From Magnolia sinica (taxonomy: Eukaryota; Streptophyta; Magnoliopsida; Magnoliales; Magnoliaceae), in NCBI RefSeq assembly GCF_029962835.1, contig NC_080586.1:69751001-69815000 (forward strand): a stretch of DNA of 64,000 bases, given 5' to 3'. This document shows positions 5,750-58,556 of the stretch, piece by piece. Under the pieces are notes generated by a model. That model made no database searches. It had not been told where the DNA came from and worked only from the letters and a program-made list of their open reading frames with translations. Numbering within the stretch: the stretch's first letter is position 1; each line of letters starts with the position of its first letter. The translations under genes and the position numbers were made by a program.

Positions 5750-7531
5750 TCACATTATGGCACAACCACTAGCATTCTCATCGCTGAAGTAACTATAAGG
5801 AGGCGGAGGCGGCGGTTGGTACTGTGCCGGCATGTAGGCCACCTGCGGTTGCTGGCGGGCATACATCATCGGCTGGAACCGCTCATTCCCATTCTGCCGC
5901 TGCTGCTGCTGCTGCATCATCAATGCCATTAGCTGCTGCTGCTGCTGCTGCTGTTGCTGCTGCTGGTTGTAGAAGGGATTTCCAGGGACGACTTCAGGGC
6001 CGGCGCCCTGGAAGTATCCGCCAGCATTCATTGCCGAAGCTGGCATACCTTGAACAGCTGGGATGTTGCCCATCTGGCCCATGGGAATGTTCATCTGGCT
6101 CATATTTCTTACCCCACCACCAGCCAGATTAAGATCTTGCAAGCCCTGAGCCATGTTATTCATTTGATGGCCCACCTCATTTTTGGCCCCACCTCCCCCT
6201 TTCTTATTACCACCACCACCACCACCACCACCACCACCATTATTGTTTCCAGTGGCATTCTTGTTATTTCCATTGCCACCATTCTTGTTATCCTGTGGCC
6301 CACCATTCTTAGCCCCATTCTTTTGGGGGCCACCACCTCCACCTTGATTTTGATTTCCCCCATTGTTACCACCACCACCCTTCTTCCCACCATTGCCATT
6401 TTTAGCATCATTATTTCCACCATTGCCCTTGGCCTGCACATTTACATTCCCACCCTTGGGGAGCTGCTGTTGAACATTTGGGACCACCCCACCAAGACCA
6501 TTCATGCCTTTCATCTTCTGATGGATCTTCATCAGCTCCTCTTCATCATCGAAACCATCATCATCATCATCATCAAAATCATCAGCATCTAAGTCATCAA
6601 AATCATCACTCCCATAATCGTCAAAATCACCATCATCCTCGAACTTGACAGATTTCTGGTCCTTGAAGGGCAGACCTAAGCCTTTGAATTGGGGTAGCTT
6701 CAAACCTTTAATCTGTTGCTGCAGCTGCTGCTGCTGCTGCTTTGGCTGTTGGGCTTTTTGATCTTTTCCACCCTTTTGAGATTTCCCATCTTTCTGGCCT
6801 TTGCCATTATCGATTTGCATGTTCTGAAACTGGCCTTTGGGCTGGTTGCCTCCACCCTTTGAACCCCATATCTCTGCATGTTTCCCACCCTTCTGCAGCT
6901 TTTTTATTAGGGTAGAAGGGTCAACATCACCTGAAACAGTCACCTTCCCCTGCTCTGCATCTATACTGGTTGTATACACCCCTAAAAACCCATATAAAAA
7001 ATTTTAAAAATTAAAATAATCCATTAAAATATACCCCCTAAAATTGATACTTCCACCCCAACAGGACTAACTTGGTATTAAAAAAAAAAAAAAAGGTTCT
7101 TTTTTTCAGTTCTTTTGATGATGAAGTCAGCCATTTGGAGTGGAAGTAACATTCCAATGGGGTAATTTCTCAAAAAAAAAAAGAGTGAGGAAATACCATC
7201 AATCTTTTGAAGAAGTTTCTTCACCTTCTGCTTACATCCATCACAGTGTATGTGTACCTTAAGAACACAAGTCTACAAAAAAAAAAAAAAAAAGGCAAGA
7301 AAAGTAAAGAAAAAGAAAACCCAAGGAAACCAAAATCAGAACAGACACTAGAAAGGAAAAAACAGAAACAAAAAACAAAAGAAAAGAGGAAAGGAAGAAA
7401 GGAAGAGAAGAATGTTTAAAGGAAAAAACCAAGAAAAGAAAAGGAGGAAAAGAGGAATTAATATGTTTTAGTTAGAAAGAAGCAAACGCAAGATAGGGTA
7501 CCTGAATCTTCAAGAACTCTTCCTTACTCAT
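5750..7531 (-). CDS. HIPP: Heavy-metal-associated isoprenylated plant protein (HIPP), 3 exons
   Basis: Exons, read on the minus strand, are 7502-7531, 7197-7272 and 5750-6981; both introns are GT-AG and the joined frame gives 445 aa. The start [10 protein letters not shown] is the usual first exon of this HIPP subgroup. Exon 2 carries the HMA core with a CDGC metal-binding pair (Cys20, Cys23) followed by KQKVKK. Exon 3 begins [13 protein letters not shown] and completes the HMA fold. After about residue 85 the protein is low-complexity: a Lys/Gln-rich stretch, a strongly acidic Asp-rich block (about 150-186), a Gly/Asn/Lys-rich region with poly-Gly, poly-Gln runs, and a Pro/Tyr-rich tail. It ends in CAIM, a CaaX box, so farnesylation and membrane attachment are expected. 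HIPPs are known as metallochaperone-like or stress-related scaffolds; the exact role here is inferred. The family assignment is firm, the orthologue number is not. Confidence 0.95.
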
Positions 7532-17576: not shown

Positions 17577-20500
17577 TCAATGATCTTCCTTTTTCGCCTT
17601 GATCTCTATGAGTTGCTCAACAGGCTGGCGACATATGGGACACTTATTTGACTGAAGCCTCAGCACTTTTGCACATTCACTGCACATACACTGTAAACAC
17701 AGCACCAGTGCCAAAGTTGAGAAACTGAAGATTGAGATGAGAAGAAAGTGAAACATGGAGTGGTGAGAAGAAAGCGCAAGGACCTGGAACCTGCAAGTCC
17801 CAAACCCGATCAGCCCAGGTCCAGGATCTCTAGGACCCAACCCATTGACAGCTCTAATCCAGTGTGACAGATCAAACAGCCTGGATTAGTCTGTCTATCC
17901 CTTCTTATGAGTTGTACCTTTTGATCAAGAAAAGGTAGGCTCTAAAATTTCAAGTTTCATAAAATGATTTGATACAGTGAGGCTTTGACGTAACTTACCA
18001 TGCATACTATTGAGCTGTTTGTGGGCCCGGCGTGATTTGTGTGTGGCATGCCAACCGGCCATCAGGTTTGCCCCACCTTGAAGATAAGCTGCGCCAAAAA
18101 TCAGGCTGATCTGAAACTCAAGTGTGCCACAACTATTGGAAACAATATAAAGATGTGACCAAAACCTCCAAATCAAGTAGTGAGGCCCACCTGAGTTTTG
18201 GATCAGCCTGATTTTTTGGGTGTCACCATCTTAGTGGGGCACTCCTTATGAATGTGTTGTATGGCACATATGCCCCAAGGTGCCCCACACGATTTAATAT
18301 TTTTCTATGCTGGTCATTGTTCCCTGTGTTGTGGCCCACCTGAGATCTGGTTTGGCCTGATTTTGGGGTCAGGGCCAAACAAAGGGCACACCTGATGAAC
18401 CGGATGGATTTCAGACAGAAATCACAATGAGCCCCACACGGCCAACATCTAGGCAAATCAAACAAGGGCGACTCAGTATATCTCTCCCCATTGAATGGGT
18501 TGGCCCTTGTGAAGCAATACAGGGCTAGTCACCCCCTCTATAATGGTTTCAATGGGGGTGTAATGGATTGTCCAGGACCGAAACCAGCAACTACGGGAAG
18601 TAGAGCGGTCAAGGGGTTGGGCCTAAGATTGTCTTAGGCCAGGATTTTGAATTGTTTGGGCTCGGCCTATTCAACTTTTTGCATTTGCTAGCCCCAGCTG
18701 GAGGCCCAGGCCCAGACCCCCCATTGACAGCCCTAATTGTACTATACAGATCATTTTTTCAAAAGAAAAGGTTTTGTTAATATTGCTCAGCAAGAATTAC
18801 AGGAACCTGTTTGGGCTTTCAACAGCTCGTGTTCAGGTCAGGTCTTGGTGTCACAATCCAAGGGGTCGGTTTTTGTATCATGTCAGGTTCAAATCCTGGT
18901 ACTATGCTTGATGTCCCAATCTGATCAGACTCAGGTACGCATCTGGTCTTCGATAGGGCTGTCAAAGGGTACCAAGACCCGTGGGTACCCAATAGACTGA
19001 CCTGATTTTGACAGGCCCATGTCCACTCGGACCATTTTGGACCCGGTTAAGAAACAGGTGGTCAGATTTGGATCGGGTATGGGTTGAATCTGGTTATTTT
19101 TAATAGTAATATTATATTATATTAAAATATATAAATTATTCTAGTAATGAATGTGATTTGCTAAGCACATGTAAGAGAGCACCTTTACAACACACGTCAA
19201 AGTGGCACACACATGTGATGTGATCAATCCATCAATCTGACCACATAAATGCCCTTATGTGATGTGGACCTTACCCAAACCCAACTTTGAACCAAGACCC
19301 AATGGGTACTCAAACCCAATCAGATTTGGAATCGGGTCCTAAAAAACAAGATTTGAACCTGAATTTGAGAATGGAAGTCACCACATCCAAATATCAAGGA
19401 CATATAATCCTAACTGCTGAATTTGAGAAAAAATGTGGACAGGTCAAGAAAACATTTTTACAACTATCTTTTCATTCTGTCAAATTCCAACAGTTGGGAT
19501 GCTTTTTCTTGGATATGGCAACATCCATGGTGGGTCCTTCCAAATGGGCAGCACAGATCTTGAAAACTTGTGCTTCAAGAAAGAGAAGAGAATAAGAGGG
19601 CTTTGATTCTCACCACATGTCGACAAGGCAACACGGCTGTATCCTTTGGCTCAGACAGGCAAATAACACATTCTTTACCAGGATCACTGTCATCGAACTC
19701 TGCTTCTGATGGGTTAACCATGCCGAAAAGCTCACGTAGCTCATAGCGGACACCATCGAACCGCAATATCTGCTTGATTACCTTCACTTGGAATGGTTCA
19801 TTATGCTTCTTCTCAATGACAGCTTGAGTAATTTGAGCATGAGTGGGGGGAGACTGAGCAAGCTGTTCATCTGTGGGGAAAGATGGTGATGAACATGCTT
19901 CAGCAGAAATGACAAGTGGGTAGACATCATCCGGTGCTGGTTTCAAAAGATCATCCAACGCGAAGAATCCTAGATCAATGCCAGTTCCTGAAGGTTGACG
20001 TAGTTTCTGACCTAAACCTTTTTGGAAAGGTATTCTCACTGGAGTGATATCAGGATACTGAGGAGAGAAGCTACAATTTGTCCCTTCCTTTGCAAAGTAA
20101 TAGATGGTGATACTGTTGTGAAAAATAGAAAGTTATTATTAGGAATTAACTAATCAAACATCAGGTAGCTGTTTAGATTTTAAGTAGTTGTATACTACAA
20201 TCAGTTCCCAACATGTTTACTGCTTAGTTCATTCCTTTCTCTTTTCTAAAATGTACCGTGCTGACTAGAGAAAATGACATGTTGCTCGTGACTCACCCGA
20301 CACAACCCATTTTTCACTAAAACTGATTCTAAAAGCCTGAAGACTCTCCTTATGCAAAAAGGACTCAACTCGGCCAAGTTTTTTTGGACATGGTGACTCT
20401 CAGTTGAAAACAAATCATCCAAGTAATCGATTTTATTCTGTTGAGAAAACTCAACACAATCAAATCATCCTTGTTGAATCATGAATCGACAAGTTTACCA

Positions 20501-50640: not shown

Positions 50641-52543
50641 TTTTGAAGCTTCGCCGGATTGAATTTTAGAAAAAGACAAAATTAGCCCGTTTGAGTTGAA
50701 GGAAGCCGGCATAAGACCATACAAGGCAGAGGGAGAGAGGAATAATATGATACGTGACCCGAGTTTGGGACAGTATACACGAGTCCACTTATGGGAATGT
50801 GGGTCCCACCATCCATTGTTCGGTAATCCAGACCATTGGCATGTTGGGTCTCACCATCGATTGGGAATTTGGCAAACGATCACTGATGGGAAGCATTCAG
50901 ACACCGATATTCGGACTTCTTTCAGTTGAATGTAAACCGTTGTTTCTTGACTGTATCCATGTGGGGCACACATCTAAAGTTTGAAACTGTCCATCTACGG
51001 TGAGAAAAACAAGTAGAAAGGTTTGTATTTCTGAAAAATGGGCCCCACTTGTTAGAATTCAACACTAGTGTATACCGTACAGAACGATAACCGGCACGTA
51101 CCATACAAACCCCACATGCAATGAACTTGGAGAAATTTACGACTGTGGACCCCACCTTTTATCCCGTGGTTTTTACGAGACAATACAAACTTAATATACG
51201 CACTTGGACCTCCTCGTACGGACACCGAATTTGAGGACGAAAATACCCCTGCCTTCCTCTGGCTGGCGTGCAGAGACGAGCGCTGACGGACCTGGATGTC
51301 TGTGAGAAATCCTCTGTGATGTTTGTGAGAAGTCCGGCGATGGGAACTCAGGTGGGGCCCACTGTGATGTTTGTGAGAAATCCTCCCCGTCTAAGTTCAT
51401 TCATAGGATCACAAAGACCTGGATGAAGAGGAAAAACAAATTTCATAATGATCCAAAACTTCTGTAACTCCTAAAAGAGTTTCAATGGTAGACGTTCAAT
51501 TCCCCACTACCTTTTAGAGTGTGGTCCACTTGATAGTTAGATCTATCTTATTTTTCATCTCAAGCCTTAATATGAGCTCACCAAATAGATGGACGGTTTG
51601 GATATAACACAAACCTCATGATTGGACCCACAGAAGTGATACAGCGAAAAAAAAGAAGAGAACAGAGTGCCACGGCACTGCCGCGGGTTTTGCGGCAGTG
51701 CCGCCGAACCTACCGCCGAACCGGCGGTAGTGCCGCGGCAGTTTGGGCTTTTAAATAAAAAAAAAAATTAAGGGGAGAACTTTTTCTCCCTTACATTTTT
51801 CTCTAATACATAATTATGTAAATATGTATATGTAAGTATATAAAAATATTTTTCTATCTTTTAATTCATTTCTTTGTCTATTTATTTAACAAGCATATCT
51901 CCTAGGCTAGAATGATTTACTTAACGTACCACATATGATTTTGGGGTAGGAGAAGCTAATTTAGCCAACAAACATAGTTATTTTCCAAGATCTATAAGGA
52001 GTTCCTCAAGCACTATTACACTACCATAAAGAGAAATATCAGTACAGAGTATACAACTAATGCAACAGCTACCTAAGGATAGCCTATCATGCTTAAAAGG
52101 CTAAATAGATCACCATACATGTTAAAAGGGCTCATATGACATAGTCTGAAATGTATCCTCAGACATGTTTATAGAATGGAAGTTCCATGGAAGCTTTATT
52201 CATGTATTCTCAGCCCTGCATTTGGCCCTTGAGTTAAATTTCCAGAAATTGCTATTCTAATGGATTCTACAATTGGTTAAAACAATTAGAACAATGGGAG
52301 TTATTATTTGAGGTGTAAACTCAGGTAACAAAAAGCTTCTCAGTTGGGTTTCTTTCTCAAGGTCCTTCCAAACACCGAGTGAATTTGGAAAGTGACCACA
52401 ACTACATATTCAACCAAATGCTAAGGTTTGCACATAACTAGCATTTCCAAGTTAGGTTTGTGTAGTTCAAACGCCAGCTAATGACATGAACGATTTGTGG
52501 CATTCAAGCTGCAACGAAGGAATCCATACCAGTTTCAAGCTCT

Positions 52544-53181
52544 TTGAAAATGAGCGGGGCAAACATGAAAATGAGCGGGGCAAACATGAAAATGAGCGGG
52601 GCAAGCATGAAAGGGAGCGGGGCAAGTATGAAATTCAGCGAGGCAAACATAAAAAATGAGGGGGGCAAGCATGAAAATGAGCAGGGCAAGCATGAAAATG
52701 AGCGGGGCAAGCATGAAAATGAGCGGGGCAAACATGAAAAGAGCGACGCAAGCATGAAATTCAACGGGCAAACATAAAATTCAAGATCTAAAGCAATTGT
52801 CAAGCATTAAATTCTATGTGCATTGAACTTGATCAACGAGCATAACGAGACAAACTGAAAATACAGTGGGACAAAATATAAAGTTCATTTTATCATCCAC
52901 CAAAATTATAAAGTATGCTATACATCCACCCATGCACTTCTGGTAAATATGAAGTATGAGCGGGGCAAACTAGAAAAACAGCAGGGCAAACTGAAGTATG
53001 AGCGGGGCAAACTGAAATATGAGCGGGGCAAACTAGAAAAATAGCGGGGCAAACTGAAGTATGAGCGGGGCAAACTAGAAAAACAGCGGGGCAAACTGAA
53101 ATATGAGCGAGGCAAACTAGAAAATCAGCGGGGGAAACATGAAAATCAGCGGGGGAACTAGAAAATCTGCGAGGGAAACAT
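52544..53181. repeat. 21-bp minisatellite, left arm part 1
   Basis: The tandem unit resembles AAAATGAGCGGGGCAAGCATG and, further in, GAAGTATGAGCGGGGCAAACT. The period is 21 bp, a multiple of three, so frames stay open without implying a protein. Confidence 0.9.
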
Positions 53182-54465
53182 GAGAAAGTGGTTGGGGATG
53201 ATATTCATAAGGCAGTGTGTTTCTTCATGGAAGGAGGTCAGATGCATAGAGCGTTTACGGCATCATTGATCAGTCTTCTCCCAAAGAATCCGGCCGCTAA
53301 AGGGTTTGTAGACTACCGGCCGATTAACCTTTGCAATGTTATTTACAAAATCTTCTCAAAGATCCTAGCTTCCTGCTTGAGTAAGATCCTTCCTAGGCTT
53401 ATTTCCATGGAGCAAGGGGCTTTTGTGAAAGGCAGGTCTATTACAGAGAATGTTGCTATGACGCTTGAGGCAATGCGCAACAATGACTGGAAAGCTAGAG
53501 GCGGCAATCTCATTCTCAAGCTTGACCTTGAGAAAGCCTATGATAGGGTGGATTGGATTTTTCTCAAGAAGGTGATGAGGCGATTTGGTTTTAGTGACAG
53601 ATGGATTTCCTAGATGGAAGCATGCTAATGAAATTCTGGTTCTCAGTCCTTTTCAATGGGGAGCCTACGGTGAAGTTAAACGTTGATGGCTAGGCTCTGT
53701 TAGATCCTCTCATGTGTAGTGTACAGGTTGTTTTCCCATTTTTTGGGCTTTCAGTGTTTGGGGAGGCCGTGGCAGGTGATCCTCCTGATTGGCTTCCCTG
53801 ATCTTGGTATGGGATGCCTCTCTCATATGGTGCTAGAAAAATACAGCTTGTGATCCAATTGGGTGAGACAACTGGCCAGACAAGGTCCTTGTCGTAGTTT
53901 GTTGTTGAGAAGCCGCTGCCTCCTTCGTCCTCTGTTTCAGTCTTTGCTTCAGTCTATCTTCTCTACTTCTTCTAGTGGATGCTGCCTATGTGTTGTTGTG
54001 GTGGGCCTTCCCTTGGAGGTGTTGTCGCTAAGGTTGGTTTAGGGTCTTGGATGTGAGATCATAGCAGCAGACTATGGTCTATGGTCAGAAGTTGGGAGGG
54101 CTGGATGGGAAGGTGTGGCCTGCTTGAGTCAGTGGTATAGGCAGCTGGTTGGTTTGTATAAGTGGAATATTGTAGGTAGGGAGAGTGGTCGCTTCAGCCC
54201 ATGGGATTTTAAGAAGGTCGAAGAGTGGAGGAGTCGAATTTGCCTCCTTGTTGTTAGTGAGTGAGGTGGTGTCTTCCTGGTAGTGTTTATGCCCATTGAG
54301 GGGCAGCTTGGCACGTTTTTTCTCGTTTCTCTTTCTCTTAATAGCAGATATGATAGGCGAGGCCCGATGTTTTTTGTGGAGCCCACCCGAAAATGTTCCT
54401 TGTACATCGTTTATTCATTTATTAAAAGTTTTAGGGGCATCGCCTTCCTTTAAAAAAAAAAAAAC
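53182..54465 (+). mobile_element. L1-type LINE fragment inserted in the minisatellite
   Basis: About 53188-53613 encodes reverse-transcriptase motifs: FVDYRPINLCNVIYKI, QGAFVKGRSITENV and LKLDLEKAYDRVDW. The frame stops just after this. The remaining 3' part carries a short RNase-H-like word (KLNVDG), suggesting internal deletion, and ends in a poly-A run at 54453-54465. The copy is 5'-truncated and dead. Minisatellite units flank both sides, so target duplications cannot be separated from array sequence. Confidence 0.85.
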
Positions 54466-54640
54466 GGGGGAAACATGAAAATCAGAGGGGAAGCTACAAA
54501 ATCAGCGGGGGAAACATGATAATGAGCGGGGCAAGCATGAAAAATGAGCGGGGCAATCATGAAAATGAGCGGGGCAGGCATGAAAATGAGCGGGGCAAAC
54601 TAGAAAATCAATGGAGCAAACTTGAAAATGAGAGAAAATT
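54466..54640. repeat. 21-bp minisatellite, left arm part 2
   Basis: The same 21-bp unit resumes directly after the poly-A of the inserted LINE, showing that one array was split by the insertion. Confidence 0.85.
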
Positions 54641-54644
54641 CACC

Positions 54645-54965
54645 AGAGAGAGAGAGAGAAGAGGGTTTCATCAACTAAAAATCGAAGATAGAGAAGAAAA
54701 ATCCCTCAATTTTGATAGAAAATAAAAACAAATCAAAGCTCATATAAAGAAAATACCTGGAAAACGCCAACAGAGAGATAGAGAAGAGGGTTTGGGGCTT
54801 CTGGGCTTTGAGGCACAGCAAGAGGGAGAACAAGAGTTGAGGGTTTGGGGCGAGAGAACGGTTTGGGATTTGAGGTCAAGCACGGATTATGAGAGACCTT
54901 TGGAGGAAGTTCAGATGCTAGGTAGGGTCCACTGTGATGTTTGTGAGGAATCCACATCGTCTATC
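54645..54965 (-). other. Possible captured gene leader, left arm copy
   Basis: Read on the minus strand this is a CT-rich stretch with CCCAAACCC words that ends in CGTTTTCCAG followed by GTATTTTC, a good splice-donor context. It looks like the 5' leader or first exon of a host gene. The copy at 55722-56050 is the same sequence inverted. No protein domain is recognised. Confidence 0.4.
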
Positions 54966-55520
54966 TATGATTTGGACTGGTCTGTTCAGTCTCATTCCGG
55001 AAAGAGTAGTATAAAAAATTTCAATAGGATAATCTTAATGTTCTGATTAGTGGTATAAAATTATGTAATGGTCAACGTTCAACTAAAGAAGTGTCTAAGG
55101 TTTGAGGGTAGCAACTTTAAAATCTATGTGAGTTTGGGGTGCTGTCACAGTTAGATCCATCAAACTTGCATAGTTGGGCATGGACCTTATGATTCCTTTT
55201 GGAAAAATTGGTAAATCCTCAAGTGGGCTCAGTTAAAAGAGTCCATATTTGCAGCTTGGATTAATGTTCTACAACGGGCTTTCCATGCTAGCATTCCAAG
55301 ATATAGGGATCATGGTTTTGTGAACTTGTCGGTGGGTAGCTTGTTGTAATTGAGTTTGTGTATCATGGATTTGTTATATTGACGAGGGAAGAAAAAGACT
55401 AAAGAGAGCATGTCATGAAAAATGAGGTTTCTTTCCAACAGTTGCATATAGGTGTTTGTAAAATCTTAAAAGAGAGATAAGGGCCTCCTAGTATGACTCT
55501 TGGTATACAGATAATTTTGT

Positions 55521-55640
55521 CACTACACCAAAATTGCGAATTTAGAACGGTTCTATCTTTGATTTAGGAATGGTTTTAAGCTGTTCTAAATTTGGAACTG
55601 TTATAAACCATTCTAAATATAGAAAAAGGGACGGTGTGGA
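55521..55640. mobile_element. CACTA-type transposon terminus (fragment)
   Basis: The sequence starts CACTACACCAAAATTGCG and continues with inverted sub-terminal words built on TTCTAAATT and AACGGTTCTA, as CACTA ends do. The opposite terminus was not found; it lies in the unpaired centre of the foldback element. Confidence 0.55.
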
Positions 55641-55721
55641 TTTCTCATCTCTTGTGTAGCCCACTTTGAGTTTTGGATCCACCTCATGTTTGGTCTCATG
55701 TCCTAAAATGATCTCTCAAAA

Positions 55722-56050
55722 TGGATGGACGATGTGGATTCCTCACAAACATCACAGTGGGCCCCACCTAGCATCCCAACTTCCTCCAAAGGTCTCTCAT
55801 AATCCGTGCTCGACCTCCAATCCCAAACCGTTCTCTCGCCCCAAACCCTCAACTCTTGTTCTCCCTCTCGCTGTGCCTCAAAGCCCCGAAGCCCCAAACC
55901 CTCTTCTCTCTCTCTGTTGGCGTTTTCCAGGTATTTTCTTCACATGAGCTTTGATTTATTTTCATTTTCTCTTGAAATTGAGGGATTTTTCTTCGCTATC
56001 TTCGATTTTCAGCTTATGAATTTTCTCTCATTTTCAGCCGAGTGTAGGAG
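55722..56050 (+). other. Possible captured gene leader, right arm copy
   Basis: Inverted partner of 54645-54965. It keeps the same CT-rich leader and the donor-like CCAG/GTATTTTC junction at about 55930, which suggests the segment was present when the arms formed. Confidence 0.4.
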
Positions 56051-56094
56051 ATCATTACTCTTAAAGAAAAGATGTTCAAAGTTCCAAATTCATC

Positions 56095-57150
56095 AACGAA
56101 ATCAGATAGTTCGCCCCGCTCATATTCTAGTTCCCCTCTATTTTTCTTGTTTGCCCTCATATTTCAATTTGCCATTTTGTTTTTCTAGTTTGCCTCGATC
56201 ATATTTTAGTTTGCTCGCTATTTTTCTAGTTTGCCCGATGATTTTCTAGTTTGCCTTGCTCATATTTTAGTTTACCTAGTTTGTTTTTCTAGTTTGTCTT
56301 TGTTTTTCATGTTTCCCCAGTTGATTTCCTAATTTGCCTCACTGATTTCATGTTTCCCCCGTTGATTTTCTAGTTTGCCTCGTTGTTTTTCTAGTTTGCC
56401 CGCTCATTTTTCTAGTTTACCCTACTGCTTTTCATGTTTCCCCTGATTTTCTAGTTTGCCCCACTTGCTTTTCATGTTTCCCTCACTGATTTAGTTTTCC
56501 CCCATGATTTTCTAGTTTGCCCCTTTGATTTTCTAGTTTCCCAGTTGATTTTCTAGTTTGCCCATTGTTTTCTAGTTTGCCCCATTGCTTTTCATGTTTC
56601 TCCTTGATTTTCTAGTTTGCCTCTTTGCTTGGTAATTTGTCCCGTTGATTTTCTAATTTGCCCTGCTCATATTTCAGATTGCTCATTGCTTTTCTAGTTT
56701 GCCCATTGCTTTTCATGTTTCCCATTGATTTTCTAGTTTGCTTCGTTGATTTTTCAGTTTTTCCCGTTGATTTTCTAGTTTGCCGCTCATATTTCGATTT
56801 GCCCCACTCATATTTCAGTTTGCTCTGCTATTTTTCTTTGTCCTTGCTCATATTTGAGTTTGCCTCGCGATTTTCTAATGTTGCCCGCTCGATATTTCAA
56901 TTTGCCCATTGTTTTCTAGTTTGCCCCGCTGCTTTTCATGTTTCCCATTGATTTTCTAGTTTACCTGCTTTTCTAGTTTGCCCCGCTCATTTTCATGCTT
57001 ACCCCGCTAATTTTCATGCTTGCCCCGCTCATTTTCATGCTTGCCCCGCTAATTTTCATGCTTGCCTTCTCATTTTCATGTTTGCCCCGTTGAATTTCAT
57101 GTTTGCTCCGCTTATTTTCATGTTTGCCCCGCTGAATCTCATGCTTGCCT
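56095..57150. repeat. 21-bp minisatellite, right arm, inverted
   Basis: The same unit appears as its reverse complement (TTTCATGTTTGCCCCGCTGA-like words). It is more diverged and longer than the left array, with variants ending in TTTCTAGTTTGCC. It faces the left array across the element centre. Confidence 0.88.
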
Positions 57151-57213
57151 TGCTAAATTAGCTTCTCCTACCCCAAAATCATATATAGTACGTTAAGCAA
57201 ATCATTCTAGTTT

Positions 57214-57348
57214 GGATCCTTACTCTTGCTCGGGTGGTAGACTCTTAGGAGTTTCAATACCCGGTCAAGCATTCAAGTATCCATAGGTGGTGAAATTCCA
57301 CTAGTGTGAGTGTGTGGGGGTGCGTGTGCGTGTGTAAAAAAAAAAAAA
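57214..57348 (+). mobile_element. tRNA-derived SINE, copy C
   Basis: The 16-bp duplications CAAATCATTCTAGTTT lie at 57198-57213 and 57349-57364. The body begins GGATCCTTACTCTTGCTC, has a box-A-like TTGCTCGGGTGGTAG and a box-B-like region 40 bp on, and ends in GT-rich then poly-A sequence. It interrupts the right arm of the foldback element. Confidence 0.88.
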
Positions 57349-58249
57349 CAAATCATTCTAGTTTAGGAGATATGCTTGTTGAATACATGGACAAAGAAAT
57401 GAATTAAAAGATAAAAAAATATTTTTATATACTTATATATACATATTTATATAATTATGTATTAGAGGAAAATACAGAAAAATATTGTTGTTCAATGCCA
57501 TTAACAGTTGTTTAATGCCATCGGAAAAATACGGAAATCTCACGTGTTTGAAGTCTTTCTCTTTTTTTTATGTGTTGCTTTTGTGGGTCCCATCATGAGG
57601 TCTGTGTTATATCCAAACCGTCCATCTATTTGGCGAGCTCATATTAAGGCTTGAGACGAAAAATAAGATAGATCTAACTATCAAGTGGACCACACTGTAA
57701 AAGGCAGTGGGGAATTGAACGTCTACCATTGAAACCCTTTCAGGGGTTACAGAAGTTTTGGATCATTATGAAATTTGTTTTCCTCTTCATCTAGGTCTTT
57801 GTGACCCTATGAATGAACTTAGACGGGGAGGATTTCTCGCAAACATCACAGTGGGCTCCACCTAAGTTTCTAATGGTTGACGCTCACTCAACACTGTTTC
57901 CTGTAATGTGGTACACTTGAGACTTGGATATACCTCATTTTTGGTCTCATGGCATAAAATGATCTGGAAAAATATATGGACTGCATGGATGAAAAGCAAA
58001 CATCATGGTGGGGCCCACATACTACTGACGATTCGCCATTGGCGGGTGGCAGGAGGCTTACCCAATCCGTTTCCCTGAAAAGCAGGGGTATTTTCGTCCT
58101 GGAATTTATCGTCCGTACGAAGAGGTCTAAATGCGTATGTTAAGTTTGTATTGTGTCAAGAATATCCAATGGATAAAAGGTGGGGCCCACAGTCGTAAAT
58201 TTCTCATGAACTTGGGAGCGGATTGGGTGGGATCCCGGACTCAATCAAG

Positions 58250-58556
58250 ACGGTGCGGCCCTTACCATGGGGCCCACCTTGATGTATGTATTCTGCATCC
58301 ACGCCGTCCATCTGTTTCCCAGATTATTTTAGGAAATTATCCCAAAAATGAAGCAGAATCAATTATCAAGAGATTGGATGGGCCCCAGGAAATTTTAATG
58401 GTAGGGCGTTCAATCATCACTGTTTCCTATGTTATGGTACACCTGATAATTGGATCAACTTAATTGTTTGGATAATGCCTTAAAATGATCTGGAAGACAG
58501 ATGAACGGTGTGGATACAGAATACATACATCAAGGTGGGCCTCACAGTAAGGGCCG
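58250..58556. repeat. Palindromic GTGGGCC-family MITE copy
   Basis: GCGGCCCTTACCATGGGGCC on the left pairs with CCTCACAGTAAGGGCCGC on the right; the interior is short. Confidence 0.78.

Follow-up and report, generated by a model that had tools for sequence, protein, structure and literature searches.

A probable non-autonomous foldback Mutator-like element and its family in the genome of Magnolia sinica

Foldback elements that are assigned to the Mutator-like elements (MULEs) have been described from both animals and plants. In root-knot nematodes, the Tm1 Mutator/Foldback family, as described in PMC3169594, has composite inverted arms with a tandem motif and mostly 9-bp duplications, and its elements without a transposase occur alongside ones with a putative transposase. 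The FARE elements of Arabidopsis are likewise plant foldbacks with long palindromic ends; they are now placed among the MULEs, and a MULE transposase has been reported for them (PMC4486113, PMC3169594). Here we describe an element of 7,076 bp at positions 51130-58205 of a 64-kb stretch of Magnolia sinica DNA (the window, whose positions are used throughout unless a contig is named), which shares the composite arms, the tandem motif and the 9-bp duplications with Tm1, and whose family presumably combines members with and without a transposase in the same way. Our analysis indicates that it is very probably a non-autonomous foldback-type MULE, probably moved in trans by longer relatives with the same termini.

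The element is bracketed by perfect 9-bp duplications, ATGAACTTG, at 51121-51129 and 58206-58214, as had been claimed in an earlier interpretation made without database searches (the sequence-only reading). Its extremities are GAGAAATTT...AAATTTCTC, and both termini read GAGAAATTTACGACTGTGG, inverted relative to each other. Inverted matches cover 4,116 of the 7,076 bp (58%), a few of them lying within a single arm, while seven control windows of equal length taken elsewhere in the 64-kb sequence yielded 371, 1041, 72, 581, 0, 880 and 24 bp. The duplications, the inverted pairs and the excess over the controls bear out the proposal that this is a foldback Mutator-like element. Its features, in order, are the following, with minisatellites located by Tandem Repeats Finder (TRF).

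51121-51129, no strand: left 9-bp target-site duplication ATGAACTTG, perfect match to the right copy
51130-51255, +: left terminal inverted repeat, block A, 84% to 58079-58205
51345-51656, +: inverted block B, left arm, 93% to 57560-57868
51795-51965, +: inverted block C and its inner edge, left arm; 51795-51918 is 93% to 57350-57473 (124 bp)
51992-52544, +: subfamily-specific insert of about 553 bp, found in only part of the copies
52545-52780, +: 21-bp minisatellite, first array, left arm (TRF)
52959-53179, +: 21/42-bp minisatellite, second array, left arm (TRF)
53187-54463, +: fragment of a long interspersed nuclear element (LINE) within the left minisatellite, RVT_1 E=3.8e-16, edges approximate
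54465-54632, +: 21-bp minisatellite, third array, left arm (TRF)
54667-54968, +: inverted block D, left, 92% to 55721-56020
54969-55720, no strand: centre, 752 bp, with genome-wide matches
55721-56020, -: inverted block D, right, inverted match to left D
56125-57151, -: 21-bp minisatellite, right arm (TRF)
57214-57348, no strand: insert resembling a short interspersed nuclear element (SINE), with poly-A, between direct repeats CAAATCATTCTAGTTT (57198-57213, 57349-57364)
57350-57473, -: inverted block C, right arm, 93% to left C
57560-57868, -: inverted block B, right arm, 93% to left B
58079-58205, -: right terminal inverted repeat, block A, 84% to left A
58206-58214, no strand: right 9-bp target-site duplication ATGAACTTG, perfect match to the left copy

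The terminal pair is 84% identical over 127 bp, and its longest perfect run is 19 bp; the claim of identical termini therefore holds for the outermost 19 bp and fails beyond them. Five inverted pairs (the ends, B, C, the minisatellites and D) reach inward to near the centre, and the inverted diagonals of a self-comparison extend past the outer 120 bp, both as anticipated. Among these pairs, the minisatellites at 52545-53179 and 54465-54632 are matched in inverted orientation by 56125-57151, the inner edge of left block C (51919-51965) is an inverted match to the stretch from 57156, and the D blocks, which flank the 752-nt centre, are 92% identical over 302 bp with a 50-bp perfect run. Across the inverted pairs the arms have diverged by 7-16%. 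The remaining 42% of the element has no inverted match, mainly at 51966-52543, 53197-54452 (LINE piece), 54969-55561 (most of the centre) and 57211-57349 (SINE-like insert), so that the description of the element as nearly all arm was an overstatement. Minisatellites were indeed found in both arms, but composite arms with tandem repeats are typical of foldbacks as described in PMC3169594 and PMC4079207, and are not the oddity they had been taken for. The LINE fragment consists of a reverse transcriptase piece and a 3' end with poly-A. With regard to classification, the long inverted arms, composed of several domains and bearing tandem repeats, are those of a foldback, the 127-bp ends at 84% with further inverted repeats inside are those of a MULE with terminal inverted repeats (TIRs), and the target-site duplication of about 9 bp expected of MULEs is found at the window element and at further loci.

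To place the element in its genome, we searched the Magnolia sinica assembly (1,838,573,281 bases, 127 contigs); below, C numbers are contigs of the assembly and L numbers are genomic stretches fetched around family copies. The terminal 19-mer has 600 exact occurrences, of which 502 are followed by the left-end continuation ACC and 43 by the right-end continuation G, and its reversed control has none; the right-type terminal 20-mer has 43 exact copies (control 0). Among the first 100 of the 600 termini, which extend from C1 to C3:42.8 Mb, 18 pairs of neighbouring termini no more than 15 kb apart are in facing orientation, where chance predicts 0.12, and 2 pairs face away. In this genome the termini of the family number several hundred or more. 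Its parts recur with high similarity: nearly all of the 40 scored places of left block A (itself included) show 94-98% identity over about the first 162 bp, with one at 87%; for block D, 40 of 300 candidates were scored, and those other than the window's two show 89-94%; for the centre, 40 of 978 candidates were scored, and all but the window's own show 93-98% to it. The 553-bp insert is matched over most of its length at 28 of 40 scored places (itself included, one at only 82%) and over only its first 193 bp at the other 12.

The arrangement is also shared. As far as the stretches reach, 20 loci around other centres have the order A-B-C ... LINE ... D-centre-D' ... C'-B'-A', with a one-sided loss of D in several and additional inner block copies in others. 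Seven further loci have both ends readable, and the 9-bp duplication is perfect at four of them (L030, L032, L033, L038) and matches at 8 of 9 positions at L027, L021 and L023, the last two being a single insertion seen twice. The family predicted in the sequence-only reading, with 9-bp duplications and a similar arm order at other copies, thus exists. Between terminal pairs 10.5-11.1 kb apart, L039-L041 contain the same arms and minisatellites without the window-type centre. We observed that an alternative core of about 1.8 kb replaces D-centre-D' in L039 (2265-4100), L040 and L041 (elements of 10.5-11 kb), and that small open reading frames (ORFs) in it recur across the three. Among the papers listed by literature searches on foldback MULEs, FARE, Ulp1 MULEs, Magnoliaceae MULEs and VANC targets, none was seen to describe this magnolia family, and the words MULE and Mutator are absent from the main text of PMC10999834, which deals with Magnolia sinica. 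The family is a new one, of the already known foldback MULE type.

Several separate observations were made on individual copies. L021 (C15:4.909 Mb) and L023 (C15:4.756 Mb) contain one insertion plus a neighbouring element in opposite orientations about 150 kb apart, which points to a segmental inverted duplication on C15, and this copy has inserted right at one extremity of an element related to it. At C13:917431-918359 there is a diverged match in two pieces (82%, 89%) to the 553-bp insert at 51992-52544, which could be the source of the insert. With regard to the captured host gene fragment that marks Pack-MULEs, the LINE piece does not count as a host gene, and the C13 locus is only a diverged match to the insert. 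In addition, a long ORF with an mTERF match (E 5e-34) lies at L020:7881-9653, about 0.3 kb past the end of a family copy.

To reveal how the two arms evolve, block identities and trees were compared among copies, omitting the centre-less loci L039-L041 and block matches below 70% of the block. If the arms were converted to one another, those within one copy should be the most alike, and block A shows otherwise: left and right ends of the same element are 81.6% identical (n 9), left ends of different elements 91.3%, right ends 92.9%, and left with right ends between elements 81.8%. For block B the identity is 88.9% within elements, and 91.7% and 92.6% within the left and right sets between elements; the corresponding values for block D are 92.1%, 93.3% and 94.3%. 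In the tree of block A, left and right ends form separate clades (support 100/99), and left D is set apart from right D (97/89), although the bootstrap of the latter is not fully settled. The SINE-like insert, counted by eye with L039-L041 and inner C blocks omitted and with L021/L023 counted twice though one insertion, was seen in 20 of 21 outer right C blocks, against 0 of 15 on the outer left. Several inner C blocks carry the insert as well; the outermost C blocks of L039 obey the left/right rule, and L040 and L041 could not be oriented for this marker. For the LINE piece, the 3' end is common to most matching loci and the 5' ends differ.

Three observations reveal that the arms are not wholly apart. 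The left B of the window subfamily (window, L021/L023) clusters with right B, suggesting one exchange between the arms. Block C identity within the same element (92.2%) exceeds the left-right value between elements (91.1%), where left-left stands at 94.7% and right-right at 92.7%. Moreover, L029 is an exception in which the outer right arm has no SINE-like insert. Ongoing homogenisation of the arms as a rule was nevertheless rejected on the block identities and trees. The separate clades and the one-sided SINE-like marker indicate that the palindrome was inherited rather than remade in each copy, and it is therefore older than the spread of the family, with some exchange between the arms. The median pairwise difference among 22 centres is 4.3%, with a transition/transversion ratio (ts/tv) of 4.7; this difference, to which no rate was applied, suggests a fairly recent spread, and the copies appear fairly young.

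A mobile unit of this kind depends on a transposase from elsewhere, and we searched for candidate partners using the best 150 matches per domain, with counts near termini covering C1 to C3:42.8 Mb. The domains were examined in the order PF10551, PF03108, Ulp1 and then the minisatellite dimer, which is relevant to the p-values, and chance figures come from placing the domain matches randomly on chromosomes and do not allow for a shared regional preference of MULEs. For the MuDR DNA-binding domain (PF03108), 3 of 25 matches are no more than 15 kb away from an exact terminus (chance 0.19, p 0.0009), and copies of D or of the centre are found 9-11 kb from two further matches, on C4 and C11. For Ulp1 (PF02902), 8 of 31 matches are near exact termini (chance 0.23; 0 of 20,000 draws reached this). 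At C3:3326507-3348917, PF03108 and Ulp1 are placed by their positions in convergent orientation between adjacent facing termini. Among the 150 + 150 best matches genome-wide, 32 of 34 PF03108-Ulp1 pairs less than 30 kb apart are convergent, most of them not tied to family termini. By position, then, MuDR DNA-binding and Ulp1 domains occur near or between the exact termini of the family, and we infer that the transposase of such relatives is the mover of the family. A cluster of 15 PF03108 matches with long open frames, all on the + strand, was also noted over about 0.5 Mb at C5:104687089-105198382.

On this evidence the following history is proposed. Longer relatives with the same termini would supply the transposase and perhaps also a protease gene; the transposase would act on the outer inverted repeats and excise the element, and insertion at a 9-bp staggered cut would leave the 9-bp duplication. 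The palindromic body probably arose once, or in few ancestors, after which the left arm gained the LINE piece and the right arm the SINE-like piece and the whole multiplied as one. Family members differ in their minisatellites and in their nested copies of blocks, presumably through slippage and unequal exchange. The termini, the duplications, the family, the shared insertions and the mostly separate ancestry of the two arms are the directly supported parts of this history.

The minisatellites deserve separate attention. Their unit is 21 bp, (G/C)AGCGGGGCAAAC(AT/TA)GAAAAT. The exact dimer of the unit has 1,107 genome occurrences (reversed control 0), and among the first 100, all on C1, 75 dimers have an exact family terminus at a distance of 15 kb or less, which corresponds to 22 of 34 clusters. 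In 12 of 24 stretches, column conservation is 0.72-0.99 for AGCGGGGCAAAC and 0.88-0.97 for GAAAA, with variation confined to the junctions. Within the unit, the CpG has partly decayed to TG/CA (C to T 16%, G to A 16%), which points to past methylation of the arrays. On C1, 4 of 13 Ulp1 matches lie within 10 kb of a dimer (chance 0.08; 0 of 20,000 draws), and none of the 15 PF03108 or 12 PF10551 matches is near one. ORFs of up to 419 aa (L037) run through the arrays and match no Pfam family; a coding role was rejected, since unit length varies and the long ORFs follow from the 21-bp unit.

Several results weigh against movement by such relatives. All 12 stop-to-stop ORFs of at least 90 aa in the element were searched against Pfam and gave only RVT_1, the LINE reverse transcriptase, which agrees with the earlier claim that no transposase is present; the lack of a MURA-type transposase in the window element is expected for a non-autonomous member. 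As a partner marker, the MULE transposase core (PF10551) failed, with 0 of 23 best matches in the region of listed termini near exact termini, and on C1 none of 17 PF03108 matches is within 15 kb of one. At C2:79064037-79088106, PF03108 and Ulp1 are convergent between facing termini, with a second + terminus, 79071530, between them, and the domains may therefore belong to different elements. L042, with a MULE-type ORF of 780 aa, was rejected as a partner because no similar ends were found in the 9.4 kb read; its only matches are short ones, to blocks holding widespread repeats. Weak Pfam matches below the cut-off in ORFs of other copies were taken as low-complexity noise. Finally, one MULE nested in another could mimic the co-location of the domains. 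The foldback form arises in several superfamilies, as in Galileo of the P superfamily (PMC3169594), and the transposase of the relatives is a putative one, so that a foldback from another transposon superfamily can be envisaged; it is very unlikely in view of the 9-bp duplications and the co-location of PF03108 and Ulp1 with the termini. That the structure is a local inverted duplication or a nest of unrelated repeats, rather than a single mobile unit, might be argued from the LINE and SINE-like pieces inside it and the common repeat at its right flank. This explanation is already contradicted by the other copies, which have a similar order, both ends and duplications and share insertions, and we regard it as extremely improbable.

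Two further proposals concern what a non-autonomous foldback MULE of this kind might do. Its main role might be that of a source of hairpin RNA, as has been proposed for Mu killer in maize: transcripts over D and the centre would form a hairpin with a stem of about 300 bp, and small RNAs from it would help to silence the relatives. The 302-bp inverted D blocks with their 50-bp perfect run would suit such a role, and Mu killer is described as an inverted MuDR derivative (PMC3440606); the arms, however, have diverged by 7-16%, and because the searched ORFs of the window copy include no transposase coding sequence, a hairpin could target only shared non-coding parts; this role is unlikely. A second proposal draws on the VANDAL MULEs of Arabidopsis, whose proteins reverse silencing by binding tandem motifs; VANC proteins are described as binding short motifs that are densely repeated in tandem, all oriented alike, in the non-coding DNA of their MULEs (PMC5735166, PMC10398659), and some VANC genes (KIU) include an Ulp1 domain (PMC13317346). 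By analogy, the magnolia arms may be paired target arrays in which the unit AGCGGGGCAAAC-NN-GAAAA-NN would be bound by a VANC/KIU-like, Ulp1-bearing anti-silencing protein of the larger relatives, a reading we consider rather unlikely. Equally doubtful is its corollary, that the enzyme-less foldbacks would be demethylated in trans and would have spread through the dense target copies in both arms. Each arm does hold a tandem array of a short unit, the dimers cluster by family termini, and the excess of Ulp1 matches near dimers on C1 fits, and does not prove, the view that a protein of Ulp1-bearing relatives has the arrays as its targets. Against this, arm tandem repeats also occur in foldbacks of other superfamilies, such as Galileo (PMC4079207), and since foldbacks generally have composite arms of this sort (PMC3169594, PMC4079207), minisatellites alone demand no function. 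In addition, AGCGGGGCAAAC and GAAAA are similarly kept, so that no binding core is singled out; the CpG decay of the unit and the ts/tv of the centres are as expected of methylated copies; none of the 15 PF03108 matches on C1 lies near a dimer; and the VANC-like protein of the relatives is a presumed one.

At the insertion site, the right flank (58206-58450) belongs to a widespread repeat with 3,467 first-look candidates, 40 of which were scored. Matches to this repeat begin inside the duplication or directly beyond it, which puts the element at the border of another repeat. None of the 41 resulting matches spanned the joined flanks as an empty site would, and the left flank had no further match among them. 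Block D, read outward from the centre, bears a weak resemblance to a 5' leader with pyrimidine-rich stretches, and right D read in this direction opens a candidate GT...AG intron at 55931-56037. All 13 alignments that extend to the AG preserve it, and the donor G and T are kept in 93% and 97% (n=29), with a block average of 94%; the candidate was rejected as a sign of function because conservation at its splice-site columns (0.93, 0.97, 1.0) does not stand out from that average (0.94). An Rfam search of the window gave no match at the gathering score. Elsewhere in the window, a minus-strand ORF at 5750-7000 reaches the Pfam cut-off for a heavy-metal-associated domain, and another at 19575-20129 falls just short of it for a RING-type finger, so that the window is partly genic.

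These results provide a magnoliid with a foldback MULE family that is large and fairly young. Many of its copies are alignable, the SINE-like marker distinguishes the two arms, and candidate autonomous partners are located in the same genome. Both the origin and persistence of foldback arms, which on present evidence are inherited with some exchange, and the reason why they carry minisatellites thus become testable in one genome. If the arrays are indeed anti-silencing targets, the minisatellites of foldbacks would be tied to the arms race between transposons and DNA methylation, trans-acting anti-silencing by MULEs would extend from Arabidopsis to magnolias, and minisatellite arms would gain a function.

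Compared by description with the known systems, the magnolia family differs from Tm1, which is an animal family with a motif of about 14 bp and one described copy of 1,080 bp (PMC3169594), and from FARE, whose host is a eudicot (PMC4486113, PMC3169594). In KAONASHI (KI) MULEs and KIU-carrying VANDALs, Ulp1 lies in reverse orientation to the transposase, as it may, judging by position, in the presumed magnolia relatives; KI-MULEs are described as non-TIR (PMC2528002, PMC13317346), whereas the magnolia family has 127-bp inverted ends and is for this reason not filed with them. The MULEs with multiple long TIRs described in PMC3310237 resemble the magnolia family in having extra copies of terminal blocks in amplified elements, but their TIRs are mostly in tandem, while the magnolia elements combine minisatellites with blocks that are nested and inverted. 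Tetris of Drosophila virilis is also a non-autonomous foldback with tandem repeats inside its arms, for which PMC4079207 reports that no autonomous partner was found; its repeats are about 220 bp long and seeded satellite DNA, compared with the 21-bp unit of the magnolia family.

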